From positions 1-20,805 of the forward strand of contig JACCXN010000040.1 of NCBI GenBank assembly GCA_013696965.1: DNA of 20,805 nucleotides, written 5' to 3'. The notes beneath the pieces were generated by a model. The model did not search any database, had not been told where the DNA came from, and saw only the letters and a list, made by a program, of their open reading frames with translations. Positions within the stretch are counted from its first letter, which is position 1. Each line of letters opens with the position of its first letter. The position numbers and the translations under genes were made by a program. The stretch is from Bacteroidota bacterium. GTDB taxonomy: Bacteria; Bacteroidota; Bacteroidia; JACCXN01. Positions 2,154 to 16,304 of the stretch are shown here, piece after piece.

Positions 2154-2161
2154 CAAATTTA
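2154..2161 (-). promoter_or_regulatory. -7 promoter element of the lipoprotein gene
   Basis: TAAATTTG on the minus strand matches TAnnTTTG and lies 38 bases before the lipoprotein start codon. No TTTG -33 element is present at the usual distance; the Crp/Fnr-type palindrome at 2183-2198 covers that zone instead, suggesting an activator-dependent promoter. Confidence 0.6.
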
Positions 2162-2182
2162 CGTAACAATTACTAAAAAAAA

Positions 2183-2198
2183 TGTCAGATTTATGACA
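2183..2198. promoter_or_regulatory. Candidate Crp/Fnr-family operator, site 1
   Basis: TGTCAGATTTATGACA is a perfect inverted repeat of two 5-base half-sites separated by six bases, the architecture of Crp/Fnr-family operators. Its centre is 33 bp upstream of the centre of the TAAATTTG element of the lipoprotein gene, placing it near -40 relative to the predicted start, the class II activator position. An equivalent site with the same spacing lies at 3224-3239. Confidence 0.65.
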
Positions 2199-2531
2199 GT
2201 AACCTCAGGTAAAAGAAAATATTTTTTCGTGCTGTATTTTAGAAAAAATATTGACTTAAATAGTTCCGGCTGAATGTAATCAATAGTTTTTTTTCTGTTG
2301 TGGACGGTTCAGTGCGTTTGGAAACTTTGCTACTTTCTATTATTATACCTGCTCATCAGATCCCGGATGCATGCATTCAGGAGTGCAATAAAAGCCTACC
2401 TTCTGCTATGCGCGCAATAATTTGCCTGCCCAGCATTTCTAAACTTTAGAGGGATAATAAGAAACCCTGGCTAAAATCCTTCCTTATCTGATAGTTTTTG
2501 CTTAATTTAATAGTTCCAAAACCAAAAACAA
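2199..2531. other. Intergenic region before the Crp/Fnr-type gene
   Basis: These 333 bases between divergent genes contain no credible reading frame. A purine/pyrimidine patch with ATGCATGCAT near 2369 and a TAGTTTTTG (2492-2500), one base off the -7 consensus and about 30 bases before the ATG, are all that stands out. I could not define the promoter of the regulator. Confidence 0.4.
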
Positions 2532-3212
2532 ATGGAACAAAAATCAAAAGTGTGGTTTCTTGAAAATTTCAATTTCTTTTCTGAATTAACTGTAGATGAA
2601 AGAAATTTTATATGTAAGAACACCGAAATGAAATCATTTGAAAAAAATGAACCGGTATATTTTCAGCATAGTCCTGCCAAGAGTGTGTATTTTTTAAAGG
2701 AGGGAAAAATCAGGGTTTCCAAATATAATGAGCAGGAGGCAGAATTCCTGATTGCCATTTTAGGTGGCGGGGAAATTTTTGGTGAATCGGCAGTTGCCGG
2801 AAAAACAAAAAGAAATGAAGTTGCCATTGCCGAAGAAAAAACCATGCTTTGTGTAATGAGTGAAGAGAAAATGAAAGAACTATTGCTAATGGTTCCAGGT
2901 CTTAACCTTAAATTTGGTCGGATGATTGAAGAGAGGCTTGAAAAAACCCAAAAGCGGCTCGAGGATCTTACTTTTAAAAACAATGAGGAAAGGATTATTG
3001 GATTCATTAAAGAAACGGCACTAAAATCTTTAAAAGATGCCAACAATGAGTTTGTAATAGAAAACTCATTTACACATGAAGATATCGCCAAGCTTACTTC
3101 AACCAACCGTCAAATGGTTTCTTCTGTTATGAGCAGTTTAAAAAAGAAAAAGATCATTGATTATGACAGGAAGAATATCAGGATCCTGGAACTGGAAAAA
3201 CTGGATTGCTGA
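2532..3212 (+). CDS. Crp/Fnr-family transcriptional regulator
   Basis: The 226-residue protein has the standard layout: an N-terminal cyclic-nucleotide-binding-like beta barrel (about 10-120), a long dimerisation helix (about 125-155), and a C-terminal winged helix-turn-helix (about 165-222) with HEDIAKLTSTNRQMVSSVM as the HTH. The effector-pocket segment GGGEIFGESAVAGKTKRNEV resembles Crp, with FGES and an Arg matching the phosphate-binding region, but Asn replaces the Ser after the Arg, so ligand binding is uncertain. The N-terminal Cys cluster of FNR is absent, so an oxygen-sensing Fe-S cluster is unlikely. In the recognition helix NRQMVSSV aligns with Crp SRETVGRI: the Arg180 equivalent is kept, while Glu181 becomes Gln and Arg185 becomes Ser. 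That fits an operator differing from TGTGA, such as the TGTCA sites on either side of this gene. No such site precedes its own start. Confidence 0.88.
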   Translation: MEQKSKVWFLENFNFFSELTVDERNFICKNTEMKSFEKNEPVYFQHSPAKSVYFLKEGKIRVSKYNEQEAEFLIAILGGGEIFGESAVAGKTKRNEVAIAEEKTMLCVMSEEKMKELLLMVPGLNLKFGRMIEERLEKTQKRLEDLTFKNNEERIIGFIKETALKSLKDANNEFVIENSFTHEDIAKLTSTNRQMVSSVMSSLKKKKIIDYDRKNIRILELEKLDC

Positions 3213-3223
3213 GCCTGTTTTTC

Positions 3224-3239
3224 TGTCATTTTTATGACA
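3224..3239. promoter_or_regulatory. Candidate Crp/Fnr-family operator, site 2
   Basis: TGTCATTTTTATGACA is a perfect TGTCA-N6-TGACA palindrome, with the same half-sites as site 1 and a similar T-rich spacer ending in TTTA or TTTTA. Its centre is 33 bp upstream of the centre of the TAAATTTG element at 3261-3268, the same spacing as at site 1 but on the opposite strand. It lies between the regulator gene and the operon starting at 3308. Confidence 0.68.
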
Positions 3240-3260
3240 AATTTTTTGTTTTCAAAATCT

Positions 3261-3268
3261 TAAATTTG
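3261..3268 (+). promoter_or_regulatory. -7 promoter element of the 3308-5186 operon
   Basis: TAAATTTG matches TAnnTTTG and is identical to the lipoprotein promoter element. The predicted start is near 3272, giving a 5' leader of about 36 bases. The expected -33 position holds the end of the TGTCA palindrome rather than a TTTG. Confidence 0.65.
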
Positions 3269-3307: not shown

Positions 3308-4045
3308 ATGAAAAGTTCAGAATGGAAAGTAATCCAGGCAGCAAAGGAAGCAGGTTTGCCTGACCCGGGTTTTGAAATTGACCAAAACACAGCCATAGTT
3401 ATAACAGACCCCCAAAATGATTTTTTACGCTCTGACGGTGTTGCCTGGCCCATTGTAAAGGACAGTGTAAAAAAGAACAATACCATTGATAATATGCTTA
3501 CTGTGTTCAAATTATGCCAGGAACACGGAATGAAGGTTTTTATATCCCCGCACTGGTTTTATCCTGCGGATAAAGGCTGGAAATTTGGAGGAAGCCTTGA
3601 ACAATTTATGGATTCAAAGGAAATGTATATAAGGGAAGGACAATTGGACCTGGAAGGGTTTGAAGATTCAGGCGCTGATTTTTTGGAGGATTTTAAACCA
3701 TTCCTGAAACAGGAAAATATAATCCTTTGCAGCCCGCATAAAATATTTGGCCCTCAAAACAACGACCTGGCCCTTCAACTACGCAAGTACAATATCCAAA
3801 AAGTGCTAATGGCCGGCATGTCAGCTAACCTTTGTTTGGAATCACATCTTAGGCACCTGGTGGAACTTGGATTTGAAGTTGGGGTTATTGCCGATGCCAG
3901 TGCCAGCGCCATAGCCCCCGGAATGGACACTTTTGAAGCTGCTCTAATGAATTTCCGCATGATTGGCAGCCATGTTTTCAGTACGGAAGAATTTGAGCAA
4001 GAAATGGAAAAGGTAAATTTTTCTGAGGCATCCAGAACAAGATAA
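3308..4045 (+). CDS. Isochorismatase-family cysteine hydrolase
   Basis: The 245-residue protein has the isochorismatase-like alpha/beta hydrolase fold. The catalytic triad is visible: Asp34 in VITDPQNDF, Lys145 in PHKIFGPQ, and Cys176 in MAGMSANLCLESH, preceded by the segment that forms the non-proline cis peptide in this family. SPHWFYPAD (80-88) is the segment usually holding metal or substrate residues. Family members hydrolyse amides, carbamates or isochorismate; the substrate here cannot be assigned. It is first in an operon with a DUF427 protein (15-base gap) and a flavodoxin-like oxidoreductase, and its promoter carries a Crp/Fnr-type operator, suggesting a redox or respiratory-stress role. 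A decayed fragment of a close paralogue lies at 5371-5490. Confidence 0.85.
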   Translation: MKSSEWKVIQAAKEAGLPDPGFEIDQNTAIVITDPQNDFLRSDGVAWPIVKDSVKKNNTIDNMLTVFKLCQEHGMKVFISPHWFYPADKGWKFGGSLEQFMDSKEMYIREGQLDLEGFEDSGADFLEDFKPFLKQENIILCSPHKIFGPQNNDLALQLRKYNIQKVLMAGMSANLCLESHLRHLVELGFEVGVIADASASAIAPGMDTFEAALMNFRMIGSHVFSTEEFEQEMEKVNFSEASRTR

Positions 4046-4060
4046 AAGCTGGTAATTTAA

Positions 4061-4387
4061 ATGGATATAAAAATGAAAGCGCCCAAGGATGACAGGCTGA
4101 TGCAAGCAATCTGGAAGGGGCAGGTAATTGCAGAGAGTGATGAAACATTGGTTGTGGAGGGGAATAATTATTTCCCTCCTGATTCCATTAAATGGCAGTA
4201 TTTTGAAAAAAGCGACAACCACACTTTTTGTTCCTGGAAAGGAGAGGCCTCTTATTACGATGTGGTGGTAAAGGGAGAAAAAAACCATGGAGCTGCATGG
4301 TACTATCCTGAGCCATTTGAAAAAGCGGCAGAACTAAAAGATTATTTAGGCTTTTGGAGGGGTGTAGAGGTTAAACCGGTGGGCTGA
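4061..4387 (+). CDS. DUF427 domain protein
   Basis: This 108-residue protein is a single DUF427 domain. Hallmarks are the strand segment VIAESDETLVVEGNNYFPP (about 22-40), then TFCSWKGEASYYDVVV (about 55-70) and GAAWYYPEPFEKAAEL (about 76-91), with the conserved WKGEASYY and WYYPEP cores. No catalytic function is established for the family. It starts 15 bases after the hydrolase stop and ends 40 bases before the oxidoreductase, so it is almost certainly co-transcribed. No signal peptide or membrane segment is present. Confidence 0.85.
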   Translation: MDIKMKAPKDDRLMQAIWKGQVIAESDETLVVEGNNYFPPDSIKWQYFEKSDNHTFCSWKGEASYYDVVVKGEKNHGAAWYYPEPFEKAAELKDYLGFWRGVEVKPVG

Positions 4388-4427: not shown

Positions 4428-5186
4428 ATGAGTCTTGAACCAACATTAAATCAAATACAAAAAGAATGGAATGAAACCTCTAAATGGGATTTCTCTGATT
4501 TAAAAGTTTTGTATTTGAACTGCACTTTAAAACGCTCTCCTGAAAAATCGCATACTGAAGGATTGATAAATCTTTCAGCCAAAATAATGAGAGAAAACAA
4601 TGTAAAGGTTGAAATTCTGCGCCCTGTTGATTATGATGTTCCTCCAGGGGTATATCCGGATATGAGGGAAAAAGGATGGGATAAGGACGACTGGCCTGGT
4701 ATTTTTAAAAAAGTAATGGCAGCTGATATTCTTATCATTGGTTCTCCTATTTGGTTAGGGGATAAATCTTCGGTTTGCACTAATACTATTGAAAGACTCT
4801 ATGGGCAATCGGCAGAGTTGAATGAAAAAGGCCAGTTTACTTATTATGGCAAAACCGGAGGTTGTATTATAACCGGAAATGAGGATGGTATTAAACATTG
4901 CGGAATGAATATCCTTTACTCTTTGCAGCATTTGGGGTTTGTGGTACCTCCGCAGGCAGACGCAGGATGGGTGGGCGAAGCAGGCCCCGGACCTTCTTAT
5001 CTGGATGAAAATTCACACGGGCCTGAAAATGATTTTACCAACCGGAACACCACTTTTATGGCCTGGAATTTAATGCATACAGCAAGAATGCTAAAAGACA
5101 GAGGGGGTATTCCTGCACACGGAAATCAACGCAAAATTTGGGATGCAGGGTGCAAGGTGGAGAATGAAAATCCGGAGCACAGATAA
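4428..5186 (+). CDS. Flavodoxin-fold NAD(P)H-dependent oxidoreductase
   Basis: The 252-residue protein belongs to the flavodoxin-like NADPH-dependent FMN reductase superfamily. After a short N-terminal extension, KVLYLNCTLKRSPEKSHTEG (26-45) is the first beta strand and FMN-phosphate loop. ILIIGSPIWLGDKSS (101-115) is the second FMN loop and CIITGNEDGIKHC (146-158) the third. Segment 170-206, rich in Gly/Pro/Asp/Asn, and NTTFMAWNLMHTARML (207-222) follow. It should be a cytoplasmic flavoprotein reducing quinones, flavins, nitro compounds or a similar acceptor; the substrate is unknown. It is third in the putative Crp/Fnr-controlled operon. I saw no strong terminator after it. Confidence 0.82.
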   Translation: MSLEPTLNQIQKEWNETSKWDFSDLKVLYLNCTLKRSPEKSHTEGLINLSAKIMRENNVKVEILRPVDYDVPPGVYPDMREKGWDKDDWPGIFKKVMAADILIIGSPIWLGDKSSVCTNTIERLYGQSAELNEKGQFTYYGKTGGCIITGNEDGIKHCGMNILYSLQHLGFVVPPQADAGWVGEAGPGPSYLDENSHGPENDFTNRNTTFMAWNLMHTARMLKDRGGIPAHGNQRKIWDAGCKVENENPEHR

Positions 5187-5370: not shown

Positions 5371-5490
5371 CATCTGGTTTACCATAAACTTGCCAGTGCC
5401 ATCACCATAGCCCCCGGAATGGACACCTGTGAAGCTGCATTAAAAAAAATTCAGCATGATATCCTGGCTTTTTACTTTTCTGATCGATAG
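5371..5490 (+). pseudogene. Decayed fragment of an isochorismatase-family gene
   Basis: From 5392 the frame reads [17 protein letters not shown], closely matching ASASAIAPGMDTFEAAL (197-213) of the intact hydrolase at 3308; the DNA is nearly identical over about 55 bases. Upstream, HLV may correspond to the intact HLVELGF stretch with several codons deleted, and an in-frame TAA (5365-5367) cuts off anything earlier. After 5460 the similarity fades and a TAG follows at 5488. It is a remnant of a second copy, probably left by a tandem duplication of the operon. The rest of the 5187-5605 gap shows no gene. Confidence 0.75.
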
Positions 5491-5605: not shown

Positions 5606-6556
5606 CTATTTTGATAATACTAAGTATCTATCCTCTAAAAGTATCCGATACTTTTCTTTGTACTCATTTGATAAAAAAGAATTATCAACCCACTCAATCG
5701 CAACAGGTTTGTTATTTATAAAACGTTTAAACACACCTTCAATTTGTTTCTCATTTAGCTCTAAAATTTTTCCAAGCCATTCAAAATTTTCGCGCCTTAA
5801 TTTTTTCTTTTTCCCTTCAAGCGTTAAAGCAAGCTCCTCCTTGTTGCCAGGATTAACAATCACGACATTCAATAGATCGTAGGCAGGAGCAAGCACCCAT
5901 TTAGTATCGGTATTAATCATGGAAAAATTTTTAAGGTGCATGTCATTGTTGCCAGTAAGAAAACTAAAAATGCTTAACTCTAAAAAATACAGTTTGTCAA
6001 GTAAAGTATCGCTGGAATATTCTCCTAAGGCTTTTCCAACCCTTTCCATAGAATTCTTGTATTTATCGAATGCTTCCAAAATTTGAAACATATCCAGCAT
6101 GTGAATTTTTTCCCCGCTTTCTTTCCGGTCAATTCGTTTGGTGATATAAGATAATTCTCCCGATTGCAACCGTATCAAACTTGACTTCACTGTATGTATT
6201 CCAAAAGCTTCTGCGATCCGCATGGTTACATGCTCATTTTGAGGCATTTCTGGATAATGCTCTGAGGGAGGCTTGAAAATATAATTTCCGCCTAAAGCCC
6301 CAACAACTGTTAAACGACCTTTATTCCCATCTACCATAGTATCTTTAACCAATGACAAAGACAGTTTAGGTTGCACACCGGGTAAAGCAATACTTCGCTT
6401 CACTATATCCTTAGCTAACTCAGACATCTGATTTAATGAATAAGATAATAGAGGTGCTTTTTTTGTTCCGAAAAACGCTAAGCTACAATAATCGTGAAAA
6501 TCACTTTCAATTTGTTTGTCCAGTTCTTTATAACAGTATAAACATTTCTTATTCAT
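5606..6556 (-). CDS. hipT: HipT-like Ser/Thr kinase toxin (HipA kinase core)
   Basis: The 316-residue product corresponds to the HipA kinase part without the N-terminal subdomain, which is encoded separately by the upstream gene, as in HipBST systems. It opens with a likely zinc-binding motif, CLYC then DFHDYC (Cys5, Cys8, His21, Cys24). Kinase features are SIALPGVQPKLSL (55-67), the Gly-rich loop with a nearby Ser for autophosphorylation, Lys95 in YIFKPP, the catalytic loop NNDMHLKNFS (Asp205, Asn210), and Asp227 in PAYDLLN. All key residues appear present. I chose the ATG at 6556, which overlaps the hipS stop in ATGAATAA; an ATG at 6580 would add eight residues. Known HipA/HipT proteins phosphorylate aminoacyl-tRNA synthetases; the target here is unknown. 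Confidence 0.85.
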   Translation of the reverse strand: MNKKCLYCYKELDKQIESDFHDYCSLAFFGTKKAPLLSYSLNQMSELAKDIVKRSIALPGVQPKLSLSLVKDTMVDGNKGRLTVVGALGGNYIFKPPSEHYPEMPQNEHVTMRIAEAFGIHTVKSSLIRLQSGELSYITKRIDRKESGEKIHMLDMFQILEAFDKYKNSMERVGKALGEYSSDTLLDKLYFLELSIFSFLTGNNDMHLKNFSMINTDTKWVLAPAYDLLNVVIVNPGNKEELALTLEGKKKKLRRENFEWLGKILELNEKQIEGVFKRFINNKPVAIEWVDNSFLSNEYKEKYRILLEDRYLVLSK

Positions 6557-6881
6557 CTTCTTCCGGTATTGGTTTAACACTTACCGCTCCGATGCAATTT
6601 TTACAACAGGCCAAAAGCAATCCCATTCGGTCATTAGGATTTATTTTCCAGTTTTTTGCTGCGATTTCTAACAACCATCCTTCAGGAATAAGACCTTCAA
6701 AAAAGGGGAATAACCGATTTTCGCCATAAGGATGCTCAGTAACCGGCATAGAAAAGGTAATAAACTGATCAGGATACTTCGCAACATAATCCCGGTCATA
6801 CTGGAAAGTGTATTGACCTTCGTTGGTTTCAGTAAGAATACCGGCAACTACATCTTTATAATATATTTCTGCTCGCCTCAT
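6549..6881 (-). CDS. hipS: HipS-like protein (HipA N-terminal subdomain, probable antitoxin)
   Basis: This 110-residue protein matches the HipA N-terminal subdomain: a beta-rich start (AEIYYKDVVAGILTE), then FSMPVTEHPYG, FPFFEGLIPEGWLLE and the closing IGAVSVKPIPE typical of the domain end. In most HipA proteins it is fused to the kinase; here it is a separate gene, as in HipBST, where the small protein rather than HipB neutralises the kinase. It overlaps hipB by ATGA and hipT by ATGAATAA, so the three are translationally coupled. The antitoxin role is inferred from that family. Confidence 0.82.
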   Translation of the reverse strand: MRRAEIYYKDVVAGILTETNEGQYTFQYDRDYVAKYPDQFITFSMPVTEHPYGENRLFPFFEGLIPEGWLLEIAAKNWKINPNDRMGLLLACCKNCIGAVSVKPIPEEDE

Positions 6882-7102
6882 GTTTTGGGGTTCTCTTTTT
6901 TTAGTTCTTTGCTGCTTACTGGAACTAATAAATGTCCAAACATTTTTAGGACTTGATTTACCTTTTCCAGTTTTACATTTTCTTTTCCCTGTTCAATTTT
7001 TCGTATAATGGTAAGCGCCACGCCAGCCCGTTCAGCGAATTGTTCCTGGGTTAGTTTGGCTTCTTTCCTTTTATCTTTTACAAATTGGGCTAAAGGCTTC
7101 AT
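6878..7102 (-). CDS. hipB: HipB-like helix-turn-helix regulator
   Basis: The protein is a single HTH_3 (Xre/Cro) domain with KLTQEQFAERAGV as the first helices and TIIRKIEQGKENVK as the recognition and following helix, then LEKVNQVLKMFG. I place the start at the ATG at 7102, giving 74 residues. An ATG at 7117, five codons upstream, lies inside an operator palindrome and would add MRSHI. HipB should dimerise, bind the palindromes upstream and repress its own operon, and help hold the HipS-HipT complex on DNA. The C-terminal tail SSKELKKENPKT is charged and probably flexible. Confidence 0.85.
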   Translation of the reverse strand: MKPLAQFVKDKRKEAKLTQEQFAERAGVALTIIRKIEQGKENVKLEKVNQVLKMFGHLLVPVSSKELKKENPKT

Positions 7103-7121
7103 TATATGCGATCGCATTGAT
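7102..7121. promoter_or_regulatory. hip operator 1 (promoter-downstream)
   Basis: A perfect 12-bp palindrome ATGCGATCGCAT (7106-7117) within a TTATATGCGA-TCGCAT match to the hip operator motif. It overlaps the upstream candidate hipB ATG and lies just downstream of the predicted transcription start. Its centre is 39 bp from operator 2. Confidence 0.75.
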
Positions 7122-7127
7122 TTTAAG

Positions 7128-7135
7128 CAAATATA
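7128..7135 (-). promoter_or_regulatory. -7 element of the hipBST promoter
   Basis: TATATTTG on the minus strand matches TAnnTTTG. It lies between operator 1 (7102-7121) and operator 2 (7141-7160). The predicted start near 7124 gives a leader of about 22 bases to the ATG at 7102. Bound repressor on either side would block polymerase. Confidence 0.65.
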
Positions 7136-7140
7136 CTAAA

Positions 7141-7160
7141 TTATATGTGATCGCATATAA
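7141..7160. promoter_or_regulatory. hip operator 2 (promoter-upstream)
   Basis: TTATATGTGATCGCATATAA is a 20-bp palindrome with one mismatched pair. It covers the -33 zone of the hip promoter. Its centre is 40 bp from that of operator 3. Confidence 0.75.
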
Positions 7161-7170
7161 AATATTAAAA

Positions 7171-7210
7171 TTAACATAAATTATATGCGATCGAATATAA
7201 TTTATGTTAA
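7171..7210. repeat. hip operator 3 inside a 40-bp inverted repeat
   Basis: The centre TTATATGCGATCGAATATAA (7181-7200) is the third copy of the operator motif. The symmetry continues outward: TTAACATAAA (7171-7180) mirrors TTTATGTTAA (7201-7210). All 20 base pairs of the two arms match except one (C against A, four bases from the centre). It could be a high-affinity HipB site, a terminator-like cruciform or the end of a small mobile unit. Confidence 0.75.
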
Positions 7211-11870: not shown

Positions 11871-13385
11871 TTAATGTTCAATGATTACTTTTGATAAAAG
11901 ATCTGTAATTGCCGGGCCCTCTATAACTGTTCCGTTTAAGTCAAATCTACTTCCATGGCAGGGGCAATCCCATGATTTCTCAGCACTGTTCCAGTTAACA
12001 ATGCATTTCATATGAGTGCAAACGGCTGATAAAGTATATACCTTATTATTTATATCCCTATATGCAGCGATCTTTTCCCCCTCTACACTAATTACTTTTC
12101 CTTCATTTTGTTTTATCTCTTTAAATTGATCCACATCCGCAATTCCTGGAAGATCTTTCATGTATTCTCCCATTACATTCAGGTTTTCATTAATGTAATT
12201 TTTTGCTGCTTTCAATGGATTGTGCCTATTTATGTCATACATTTTAGCATAAGGATTTTTTATTCCATTGATTGTGTCAGAAATAATCATTCCAGCTAAA
12301 GTTCCATACGTAAGGCCATCCGTTGAGAATCCTGTTCCTGTAAAGATGTTTTCTTCAATTTCTCCGATATAGGCTAATCCATCTGCAGAGCGGTAACTTT
12401 GTGCCGCCCATTGATATTCTATAGATGCAATATCGAACCTCTGCCTTGCAAATTTTTCCAGTGCTTCGAATTTTTTCCTTGTATCCTCTGTTTGCCCTAC
12501 TTTATAGTGTTCTCCCACAAGCACTAGGAACTTTTGATTCTCAGTTGTTGTATAGGTCCGGAAGGAATGGTGCTGGTTTTTTGTTAGGCCCCAGTAAATG
12601 CCCTGAGGAGGATAATTCTCAGTGTTTTTTAATTTAACAGCAATAGCATCTTCCCGGTAAGGGGAAATAGCACTTTGAATGGCATAAGCACCCTTAGGAG
12701 TATGGCTGGCCAATATAATATGTTTAGCTGATATTCTTGCCAGTGATGTTTCCAAAACACATGGACTGGCAGCCTTAAAATCCAAAACCCTGGTATTCTC
12801 AAATATTTTGCAGTTATCATGGGAAATTGCTTTTGCCAGTGCTTTTACATATTTCATAGGATTGAACTGGGCCTGGCCCTCAATACGAACTGCCGATTCT
12901 ATTTTAAATGGCGTTAAAAGCGATTGCGACAGAGTAGGGGATAAACCTGCTTTTTCTAATGCCTTATACTCTTTTTCTATTGTTTTATTTTCTTCTTTTG
13001 ATTCTGTAAACAAATGCCAGGGAGTTCTGTAAAAATCACAGGAAATAGAATATTTTGCAATTGTTTGTTCAATCAAATCAATTGCAGAAGCTCTTGATTC
13101 TACAACATTCTTGCTTGTTTTTTTATCAAATTTTGAGCTTATGTGATAAAGCCGGCTATCAACTGTGGAATATAGATTTCCAGTAGAAAAGCCTGTAGTT
13201 CCACCTCCAATTTCCCTTGCTTCCAGTACCGCTACAGATTTTCCACTCTCTGATAACAAATGAGCACAGGTTAATCCCGTTATGCCCCCTCCAACAATTG
13301 CCACATCAACAGAAATGTCCTTTTGAAGCTTTGGGAAATCAACTTTTTCAGTCGTTGCTTTCCATATTGAGTTTTTGTTTATCAT
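11871..13385 (-). CDS. FAD-dependent oxidoreductase with C-terminal Rieske [2Fe-2S] domain
   Basis: The 504-residue protein is a two-domain redox enzyme. Residues 26-49 (VDVAIVGGGITGLTCAHLLSE) form the Rossmann FAD site of the DAO (D-amino acid oxidase-like) family, followed by the second-strand acidic residue in VAVLEARE and by GGGTTGFSTG. TGTGFSTDGLTYGTLAG, around 350-365, is the second FAD contact. A Rieske domain occupies about 425-504: CTHMKC gives Cys456 and His458, and CPCHGS gives Cys474 and His477. This fusion is known in several bacterial families, but its substrate is unsettled. It is first in an operon with a small membrane protein and an asparaginase. A repeat copy at 13391-13529 covers its upstream region, and I found no clear promoter there. 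Confidence 0.88.
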   Translation of the reverse strand: MINKNSIWKATTEKVDFPKLQKDISVDVAIVGGGITGLTCAHLLSESGKSVAVLEAREIGGGTTGFSTGNLYSTVDSRLYHISSKFDKKTSKNVVESRASAIDLIEQTIAKYSISCDFYRTPWHLFTESKEENKTIEKEYKALEKAGLSPTLSQSLLTPFKIESAVRIEGQAQFNPMKYVKALAKAISHDNCKIFENTRVLDFKAASPCVLETSLARISAKHIILASHTPKGAYAIQSAISPYREDAIAVKLKNTENYPPQGIYWGLTKNQHHSFRTYTTTENQKFLVLVGEHYKVGQTEDTRKKFEALEKFARQRFDIASIEYQWAAQSYRSADGLAYIGEIEENIFTGTGFSTDGLTYGTLAGMIISDTINGIKNPYAKMYDINRHNPLKAAKNYINENLNVMGEYMKDLPGIADVDQFKEIKQNEGKVISVEGEKIAAYRDINNKVYTLSAVCTHMKCIVNWNSAEKSWDCPCHGSRFDLNGTVIEGPAITDLLSKVIIEH

Positions 13386-13390
13386 AATGC

Positions 13391-13529
13391 ATGTAATTTA
13401 TTCGTTTTTTAATTATTCCTTTAAGGAACTCAAGAATGATAAAGCATTTGATTTTTAATTGTTATCCCCATTTATAGGAAGCCATGTTTTATTCATTCCT
13501 GTTTTTACATTTTCTGGGCATGGCATTTC
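13391..13529. repeat. Intergenic repeat, copy A
   Basis: This 139-base copy shares with copy C the blocks TAATTTATTCGTTTTTT, AATTATTCCTyTAAGGAACT, GAATGmTAAAGCATTTG and GCCATGTT, in order and spacing, with a GGCATGGC-like end. TTCCTTTAAGGAA (13416-13428) is a palindrome. It lies directly before the FAD/Rieske operon, about 0.8 kb from copies B and C. Confidence 0.75.
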
Positions 13530-13843
13530 AAAAAAAATTATATTAAAACCTTCATTAAATTTAATGGATTTAATCGATATAAAAAAGTTGCTTTAATGGA
13601 TACTATTTTATGAGATTATTCCCTGAAGAAAGGCATTAAGTGAATTGAATTTCCGAATTTAAATCAACATTCTTTACCCTTGGTTTTCAAAAATACACAG
13701 TTAACATTTCACCCACATTTTGCTTTAAAAGGGTTTTGGTTTTCTTTTGATTCTGTTATAAATCATATCCCATTCTGATTGAAATCATAATTATAGGTAG
13801 GGTGACAAATTATTTTTGTACTAGTTAAAACTCCAATTGTTCC
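13530..13843. other. Gene-free stretch before the stress-protein pseudogene
   Basis: No reading frame of interest. TATTTTTG at 13811-13818 fits the -7 consensus and is probably the relict promoter of the pseudogene starting at 13844. Confidence 0.4.
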
Positions 13844-14136
13844 ATGAAAACTATTTTAATTCCTACCGATTTTTCACCAAATGCTGACAAAGCCCTTGAT
13901 TATGCACTTGAGCTCGCAAATACTTATGCATCAAAAGTAATTTTATTAAGTGCCTGAGATCTTCCTCATCAAAAGTCAACAATGTTTTATCCATTAAAGA
14001 GCTTTTAAAGGAAAAGACGGAACAGGAATTAGTAGCCCTAAAAGAAAAGCAACAGGAAAAATATCCTGATTTGCATTTTGAGACAGTAATCATGATGGGG
14101 GAAACTGCAACAGTAATAAAAATATTACGCAAATAA
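13844..14136 (+). pseudogene. Universal stress protein pseudogene
   Basis: From the ATG at 13844 the frame reads MKTILIPTDFSPNADKALDY, matching MKTILVPTDFSINAEKALEY of the intact protein at 15438. A TGA at 13955-13957 replaces the Trp codon in the equivalent of HAWELPHQKS. Soon after, near 13990-14000, a frameshift moves the similarity to another frame, which continues ELLKEKTEQELVALKEK to VIMMGETATVIKILRK before TAA. Only the first third of the two-domain protein remains; the rest, including the ATP-binding motif, is gone. Two independent lesions and truncation make this a clear pseudogene of a paralogue. Confidence 0.85.
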
Positions 14137-14341: not shown

Positions 14342-14448
14342 TTTCATATGTAGATAATTTGTTATTTTTTAGTTGTCATCCCGATTTATCGGGACGCCAG
14401 GTTATCTTCATTAGTGTTTGTGCACTGTTCGGTGCATGGCTATTTCAT
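14342..14448. repeat. Intergenic repeat, copy B
   Basis: It starts TTTCATATGTAGATAATTT and ends GTGCATGGCTATTTCAT, like copy C, but lacks the central TTCCTCTAAGGAACT block. It contains a perfect hairpin TCCCGATTTATCGGGA (14379-14394) and a second, GCACTGTTCGGTGC (14422-14435). It is in tandem with copy C. Confidence 0.75.
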
Positions 14449-14588
14449 ATGTATATAATTTATTCGTTTTTTTAATTATTCCTCTAAGGAACTCATGAAT
14501 GCTAAAGCATTTGTTTTTTAACTGTCATATGGCAAAGCCATGTTATATTTATTAGCGTTTGTGAACTGTTCGTGCATGGCTATTTCAT
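14449..14588. repeat. Intergenic repeat, copy C
   Basis: This copy abuts copy B and matches copy A along its full length (blocks TAATTTATTCG, TTCCTCTAAGGAACTCA, TAAAGCATTTG, GCCATGTTATATTTATTAG) and copy B at both ends. Its internal hairpin is ATGGCAAAGCCAT. Hairpin positions are conserved among copies while hairpin sequences differ, which suggests a structured repeat family. Confidence 0.75.
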
Positions 14589-14728
14589 AAAGTGATAAAA
14601 AAACGCTATTGCACTATCTATAAACCACACCCTGATGAATAGCATTAATTTTATTTCCTGGCAAATACCTTAATTCATACCCTGGCTTCGATTTTTGAAA
14701 CCTAGTTTTCTTTGTCTTTATATTCTTT

Positions 14729-15437: not shown

Positions 15438-16304
15438 ATGAAAACCATACTCGTGCCAACAGATTTTTCTATAAATGCTGAAAAAGCGCTGGAATATGCG
15501 CTTCATCTGGCATTGTATTTTTCATCAGAAATTATTTTGTTGCATGCATGGGAGCTTCCCCATCAAAAATCGGCCATGTTTAAATCATTGCAGGATATGG
15601 TAAAGGAAAAAGCGGAGAACAATCTTAGGGAATTAAAAGAAAAGGCTCAATATAGATTTACTGAACTTAAAATAAGATCGGTTATTATGATGGATGAGCC
15701 TGAGGATGCTATAAAAAGTGTTGCACAAAAAATTGGGACCGATCTTATAATAATGGGAACTAAAGGAGCTTCGGGCCTTAAAAGCTATTTTTTTGGTAGC
15801 ACCACCAATGATGTAATTGAGGATGCACCCTGCCCGGTGTTCGCTGTTCCTGAAAAAGCTGAATACCGTAACATTAAAACCATTTGTTATGCCCTTGATT
15901 TTGATCATGATGAAATCCATGTTATTGGCTCACTTATTCCAATGGCAAAAGTATTTAATGCTAAAATAATTTTGACTCACATAACTGACAATTTAAAGCA
16001 AAAAGAGGAAAAACTTAATAATTTTGCTGAACAAGTAATCAAACTATATCAATACAATAATATCGACACAGCACTTTTATATGGGGAAAATATAGTTGCT
16101 AGTCTTGTAAATTTTGTGGAAGAAAACCAGGTGGATATTGTTTCTATTGCAAGGAAAAAACGGGATTTTATAGAAAGGGTTTTCCACAAAAGCGTATCCA
16201 AAGAAATGACATTTTCCTCAACTATTCCAATTATAATTTTCCAAAGTTCACTGCTTCCACTTGATGTTCAGGGCAAGAATGAAGAAAAATCCTCCTTTTT
16301 TTAA
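15438..16304 (+). CDS. Universal stress protein with tandem Usp domains
   Basis: The 288-residue protein has two UspA domains. The first (about 1-138) starts MKTILVPTDFSINAEKALEY and carries the ATP-binding signature GTKGASG (107-113) and GST (120-122), matching G-2x-G-9x-G(S/T). The second (about 145-270) starts IKTICYALDFDHDE and lacks that signature (IARKKRDFIERVFHKSV instead), so it probably does not bind ATP. Two-domain proteins like this are frequent in Bacteroidota and tied to starvation, oxygen limitation or redox stress; the exact role is unknown. It stands alone. A broken paralogue lies at 13844, so a tandem duplication probably existed. The 196 bases after it hold nothing evident. 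Confidence 0.88.
   Translation: MKTILVPTDFSINAEKALEYALHLALYFSSEIILLHAWELPHQKSAMFKSLQDMVKEKAENNLRELKEKAQYRFTELKIRSVIMMDEPEDAIKSVAQKIGTDLIIMGTKGASGLKSYFFGSTTNDVIEDAPCPVFAVPEKAEYRNIKTICYALDFDHDEIHVIGSLIPMAKVFNAKIILTHITDNLKQKEEKLNNFAEQVIKLYQYNNIDTALLYGENIVASLVNFVEENQVDIVSIARKKRDFIERVFHKSVSKEMTFSSTIPIIIFQSSLLPLDVQGKNEEKSSFF

Follow-up and report, generated by a model that had tools for sequence, protein, structure and literature searches.

Two perfect palindromes with TGTCA-N6-TGACA half-sites flank a Crp/Fnr-family gene in the window (the whole 20,805-nucleotide stretch that was analysed). The question raised by this locus is whether the encoded regulator acts through them on its neighbours and, if so, by what kind of promoter. 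The first-pass annotation had described the two palindromes, identical TAAATTTG boxes lying on opposite strands exactly 33 bp from them, and the lack of a TTTG -33 element at both promoters. These descriptions proved correct in both position and sequence: each box is 21 bp from the operator edge, equivalent to 33 bp from centre to centre, and no TTTG is present 17-23 bp upstream of either box. The primary sigma factor of Bacteroidota uses TAnnTTTG as its -7 element, together with a TTTG near -33 that is frequently weak or missing (PMC7366714).

The explanation that best accounts for this arrangement, to which we assign a probability of roughly 0.83, is class II-type activation of Bacteroidota-type promoters by a Crp/Fnr subfamily that is uncharacterised and distributed across this class of Bacteroidota-like bacteria. 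A dimer of the regulator would bind TGTCR-N6-YGACA operators placed upstream of a housekeeping-sigma -7 element (TAnnTTTG), with 33 bp between the two centres. Because of this distance, the dimer should be positioned at about -40, where it would cover the -33 region, replace the missing -33 element and aid RNA polymerase at a promoter without an upstream element. In the window, the lipoprotein gene would be activated leftwards and the isochorismatase-DUF427-flavodoxin operon rightwards. The regulator might, more doubtfully, act on its own gene as well: TATTTTTT, a box facing this gene that was missed in the first-pass annotation, also lies 33 bp from the left operator, and autoregulation-type sites are present in the relatives L048, L145 and L154. 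In addition to its neighbours, the regulator very probably switches on several other operons of the same genome that are linked to redox functions or make lipids or quinones, the predicted targets being a porin/YceI/UbiA/type III polyketide synthase/methyltransferase/FAD-oxidoreductase operon and an ArsS/TIGR04282/DUF547/TIGR04283 operon.

Table 1. Features of the regulator locus and its predicted target operons (window positions).
Feature	Position	Strand	Remarks
Secreted lipoprotein-like protein, 237 aa	1403-2116	-	no Pfam family; predicted target
-7 element TAAATTTG, lipoprotein gene	2154-2161	-	zero-mismatch composite, 33 bp from operator centre
Left operator TGTCAGATTTATGACA	2183-2198		perfect palindrome, TGTCA-N6-TGACA half-sites
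TATTTTTT, possible -7 box facing regulator gene	2220-2227	+	1 mismatch to TAnnTTTG
Crp/Fnr-family regulator, 226 aa	2532-3212	+	cNMP_binding and HTH_Crp_2 domains
Right operator TGTCATTTTTATGACA	3224-3239		perfect TGTCA-N6-TGACA palindrome
-7 element TAAATTTG, hydrolase operon	3261-3268	+	33 bp from operator centre
Isochorismatase-fold hydrolase	3308-4045	+	PF00857; first gene, right operon
DUF427 protein	4061-4387	+	PF04248; second gene, right operon
NADPH-dependent FMN reductase / flavodoxin-fold protein	4428-5186	+	PF03358; third gene, right operon

The regulator combines an N-terminal cNMP-binding-type domain (PF00027, E-value: 2.7e-17) with a C-terminal Crp-type helix-turn-helix (PF13545, E-value: 8.2e-11), both above the curated cut-offs, as is characteristic of the Crp/Fnr superfamily. 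The 16-bp palindromes, with 5-bp half-sites separated by N6, are of the type bound by this superfamily. The protein falls far under the equivalog cut-offs for CRP (59.8 bits, cut-off 266), NtcA (53.9, cut-off 245), LdrP (44.3, cut-off 300) and Fnr, and only one distant Paenibacillus protein was identified as a relative in a scan of genome contigs. In the regulator tree the window protein forms a long branch, and its recognition helix reads TNRQMVSS (with Arg193, Gln194 and Ser197) as compared to TSRQTVTT in orthologues. Judged by eye from the sequence, the conserved Arg of the cNMP pocket motif is followed by Asn in place of Ser/Thr. His is present only at positions 46 and 182, and Cys107, which is common to most orthologues (by eye on the alignment), is a possible redox switch. 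An AlphaFold model built from the regulator sequence alone was of insufficient quality for use (mean pLDDT 46.7).

The closest precedent for the DNA specificity of this protein is CooA, the CO-sensing regulator of Rhodospirillum rubrum, in which Arg177, Gln178 and Ser181 are equivalent to Arg193, Gln194 and Ser197. The CooA operator consensus TGTCGGCNNGCCGACA has the same TGTCR/YGACA half-site with N6 as the predicted operator, and TGTCGG...CCGACA is bound by CooA (PMC545781); several relatives of the regulator use TGTCG/CGACA half-sites. Because the recognition residues match and CooA binds such a sequence, the motif is CooA-like and not unprecedented. The first-pass annotation had called it non-standard, which holds with respect to the TGTGA of CRP but not with respect to CooA, whose half-site is of the same kind (PMC545781). 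Its argument that a Gln in place of CRP Glu181 suits a C at the fourth base of the half-site also holds: Arg193 and Gln194, which align with the CRP Arg180/Glu181-type positions, are invariant in the 13 orthologues aligned, and CooA, with its TGTCR half-sites, has the same Arg-Gln pair. The two proteins differ in that the CooA haem ligand His77 is replaced by Ser86 in the regulator (by eye, GDMF/GEIF motif). CooA controls the CO dehydrogenase (coo) genes, unlike the predicted targets here, and no coo genes were seen among the site-bearing neighbours of regulator orthologues.

E. coli CRP shares the Crp fold and family and a 5-N6-5 operator with the regulator, and at CRP class II promoters a distance of about 32-33 bp likewise separates the operator centre from the promoter element downstream of it. 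In the classical CRP site TGTGAnnTnnnTCACA, position 8 is a T. This preference is common to both systems, as position 8, which was outside our search pattern, is T in 17/19 sites. In contrast, the half-site is TGTGA for CRP and TGTCR here (TGTGA-N6-TCACA gives no spacing peak), CRP Glu181 is replaced by Gln194, and the position of CRP Arg185 is occupied by Ser/Thr. From the same phylum, BT4338/Crp (Cur) of Bacteroides thetaiotaomicron is also a Crp-family protein with palindromic operators and an autoregulation-type site, but its motif TATGTTnTAnAACATA (wwwTATGTTnTAnAACATAwww) and its carbohydrate genes are unlike those of the regulator described here (PMC3878776). HcpR, a Crp/Fnr regulator predicted in Bacteroides among others, differs in both its motifs (TTGTGA-N6-TCACAA or atTTGAcc) and its targets (hcp and electron transport) (PMC545781).

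AT-rich intergenic DNA might by chance give two similar palindromes near promoter-like sequence. The bare palindrome was rejected as a genome-wide signal, as it is unenriched in the 3.86 Mb genome (three occurrences versus two for a reversed-pattern control), and boxes with one mismatch are frequent in AT-rich DNA. Because the palindrome alone is not enriched, the signal lies in clustering and geometry, the non-random part being the occurrence of two palindromes within 1.04 kb, each at a fixed distance from a -7 box. When the window was subjected to 400 dinucleotide shuffles, perfect palindromes occurred at a mean of 0.0075 per shuffle, and neither two palindromes in one shuffle nor the composite of operator and box was ever obtained. 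The spacing found in independent genomes is a second argument against coincidence. In 56 orthologue neighbourhoods from across the class, chosen regardless of sites, we counted intergenic TGTCR-N6-YGACA sequences that were followed, after a gap of 10-34 bp, by a TAnnTTTG. When the own genome was included, there were 18 cases with a gap of 21 bp and no more than one at every other gap. With the own genome left out, 14 of the 22 spacings were at gap 21 (33 bp centre to centre), in 11 genomes of 10 families, with a nominal binomial P of 6e-15 that overstates independence, given the relatedness of the genomes and the use of some palindromes on both strands; every other spacing was seen once at most. 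No gap-21 case was obtained in the orthologue neighbourhoods with any of six control half-sites, TGTGA and TTGAT among them. A chance origin, already refuted by this conserved spacing, is scarcely credible.

The sites could also belong to another DNA-binding protein, such as a Crp/Fnr paralogue, with the flanking regulator merely a neighbour. At the thresholds used, 38/57 tree rows (some two thirds of the orthologue loci) lack an adjacent site, so that only about a third have one, and the own genome contains a second Crp/Fnr-type match (on contig C56). This is quite improbable given that the sites occur beside regulator orthologues in 11 other genomes and that the Arg-Gln of the regulator matches CooA specificity; the two deep clades of the regulator tree both include sites. 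Across the class, 6/10 perfect palindromes that have a box at gap 20-22 were in regulator-bearing genomes, which make up 54/394 overall (P 7e-4), while those at other gaps showed no such enrichment (5/25, P 0.25). The peak at gap 21 among class-wide perfect palindromes alone is modest (5/35, P 0.012). The search of related genomes for this geometry, suggested in the first-pass annotation, thus shows that the composite tracks regulator orthologues. A regulator that binds at these sites could in principle be a repressor, with a dimer at -40 that blocks RNA polymerase and must be released for expression. Both repression and activation are known for Crp/Fnr proteins (PMC545781), and the operator overlaps the place of a would-be -33 element. 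Repressor sites, however, usually overlap the -7 box or begin at variable positions, whereas here at least 10 families share a fixed distance of 33 bp, and for this reason repression is the less likely mode. Furthermore, TTTG at -33 is absent from all 19 tabulated sites, a signature of activator-dependent promoters. Repression is accordingly unlikely, and class II-type activation is preferred; the conserved 33 bp and the lack of TTTG at -33 would agree with class II promoters, in which the operator lies near -41.5.

Additional sites were identified in the own genome. The two zero-mismatch copies of the composite TGTCA-N6-TGACA-N21-TAnnTTTG that the 3.86 Mb genome contains are both in the window. 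Elsewhere there is a single TGTCA composite with one mismatch, C11:5253-5297 (minus strand, TAATTTTA), which includes the only perfect palindrome in the genome besides the two of the window and a TAnnTTT box at exactly 33 bp. This site lies upstream of an operon for an outer-membrane protein/porin (no Pfam family), YceI, a UbiA prenyltransferase, a type III (chalcone/stilbene-type) polyketide synthase, a methyltransferase and an FAD oxidoreductase. With TGTCR/YGACA half-sites allowed, a further site was found at C49:1500-1544 (AGTCGTTTAGCCGACA, TAACTTTG), which precedes genes for ArsS (TIGR04167), TIGR04282, DUF547 and TIGR04283 proteins. A composite relaxed to 2-3 mismatches was barely above background in this genome and was left unused, and because of this the full regulon cannot be listed.

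Following BLAST comparison of the C11 operon with the neighbourhoods of Crp orthologues, the same gene types were found to adjoin the regulator in five relatives (G016, G042, G050, G256 and G229). The genes next to the regulator encode YceI, DM13, DoxX, UbiA, polyketide synthase, methyltransferase and FAD proteins in G042, DM13, UbiA, polyketide synthase and methyltransferase proteins in G050, and porin, DM13, YceI and MsrB proteins in G016; in all three, these genes are preceded by an operator with a -7 box exactly 33 bp from it. Similarly, ArsS and TIGR04282/DUF547-type genes adjoin regulator orthologues in G103 and G037. As operons that carry operators but are unlinked to the regulator here sit beside it elsewhere, they provide independent evidence that the sites belong to the regulator. 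A variant site, AGTCA-N6-TGACT, is located at 2891-2906 of L088 (G000:C66), with TAAATTTG exactly 33 bp away on one strand and TAAATTTA on the opposite strand. Its flanking genes are of the peptidase S51 and DUF6789 types, with a second YceI gene further downstream on the strand of the latter, and its boxes are very near start codons. This site is a plausible member of the regulon and was left uncounted.

The proposal that the regulator activates the lipoprotein gene and the hydrolase operon is supported, with one qualification: the geometry is conserved with the regulator, but these particular operons are not conserved targets. Orthologues of the hydrolase are found in only 3/395 genomes, all of which have the regulator, and an operator was looked for upstream of the two others (in G103 and G261) and was absent. 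Among the 395 genomes, the lipoprotein-like gene has two paralogues in its own genome (G000:C14:4381-4950 and G000:C58:26429-27007, with identities of 58% and 47%) and none elsewhere; the operator was absent upstream of both. Conservation of the operators upstream of orthologues was thus not borne out for these two targets, since none precedes the hydrolase orthologues and the sampled genomes contain no lipoprotein orthologue, and assignment of the two window targets is based on their sites and the family-wide rule. Both window operons carry sites, as the first-pass annotation had noted, but the predicted regulon is wider than those two. Downstream of the flavodoxin gene, bp 5391-5460 comprise a decayed 70-bp copy with 84% identity to the 3' part of the hydrolase gene (3895-3963), evidently a remnant of tandem duplication. 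On the other side of the locus, the lipoprotein gene is followed on the same strand by egtD (ergothioneine L-histidine methyltransferase, TIGR03438; 360-1337). Co-transcription of these two genes was considered and set aside; a strong hairpin (1351-1385, -16.9 kcal/mol) that ends in T lies between them.

The genes neighbouring regulator orthologues, which include YHS, DoxX, MsrB, AhpC/TSA, glutaredoxin-like and YceI genes, suggest that the regulator may respond to a redox or oxidative stress signal. No Bacteroidota regulon with these genes was found described in the literature covered by our search, most subscription papers lying outside it. On the whole, we consider it rather more probable than otherwise that this is a class-wide, uncharacterised Crp/Fnr subfamily with CooA-like DNA specificity but without the CooA haem ligand, controlling a redox-linked regulon through an obligatory operator at a fixed distance, in place of the -33 element of Bacteroidota promoters. 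Its predicted targets would include ArsS (arsenosugar/rSAM), type III polyketide/UbiA quinone-like lipids, YceI, DM13, DoxX, YHS, MsrB and peroxiredoxins. Promoter activation in Bacteroidota, with their TAnnTTTG box and weak -33 element, has been poorly mapped so far, and a fixed operator-box distance across families offers a sharp, searchable rule for class II activation. It also ties an unstudied Crp/Fnr subfamily to operons of obscure physiology (type III polyketide synthase/UbiA, the ArsS cluster and YceI/DM13/DoxX/YHS), and allows the CooA Gln178-type recognition code to be tested in an unrelated setting.

Several other features were observed in the remainder of the window. Overlapping ORFs at 5606-6580 and 6549-6881 (minus strand) resemble the C- and N-terminal parts of HipA, respectively, and may form a split kinase toxin pair; the longer of these has a weak match to a HipA-like gene of another locus. 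A large intergenic inverted repeat of about 100 bp is located at 7101-7210. A truncated copy of the start of a UspA-type gene, with 70% identity, lies 1.6 kb upstream of it (13844-14021 and 15438-15616), and a 150-bp repeat (13382-13534 and 14445-14591) is found around this truncated copy.
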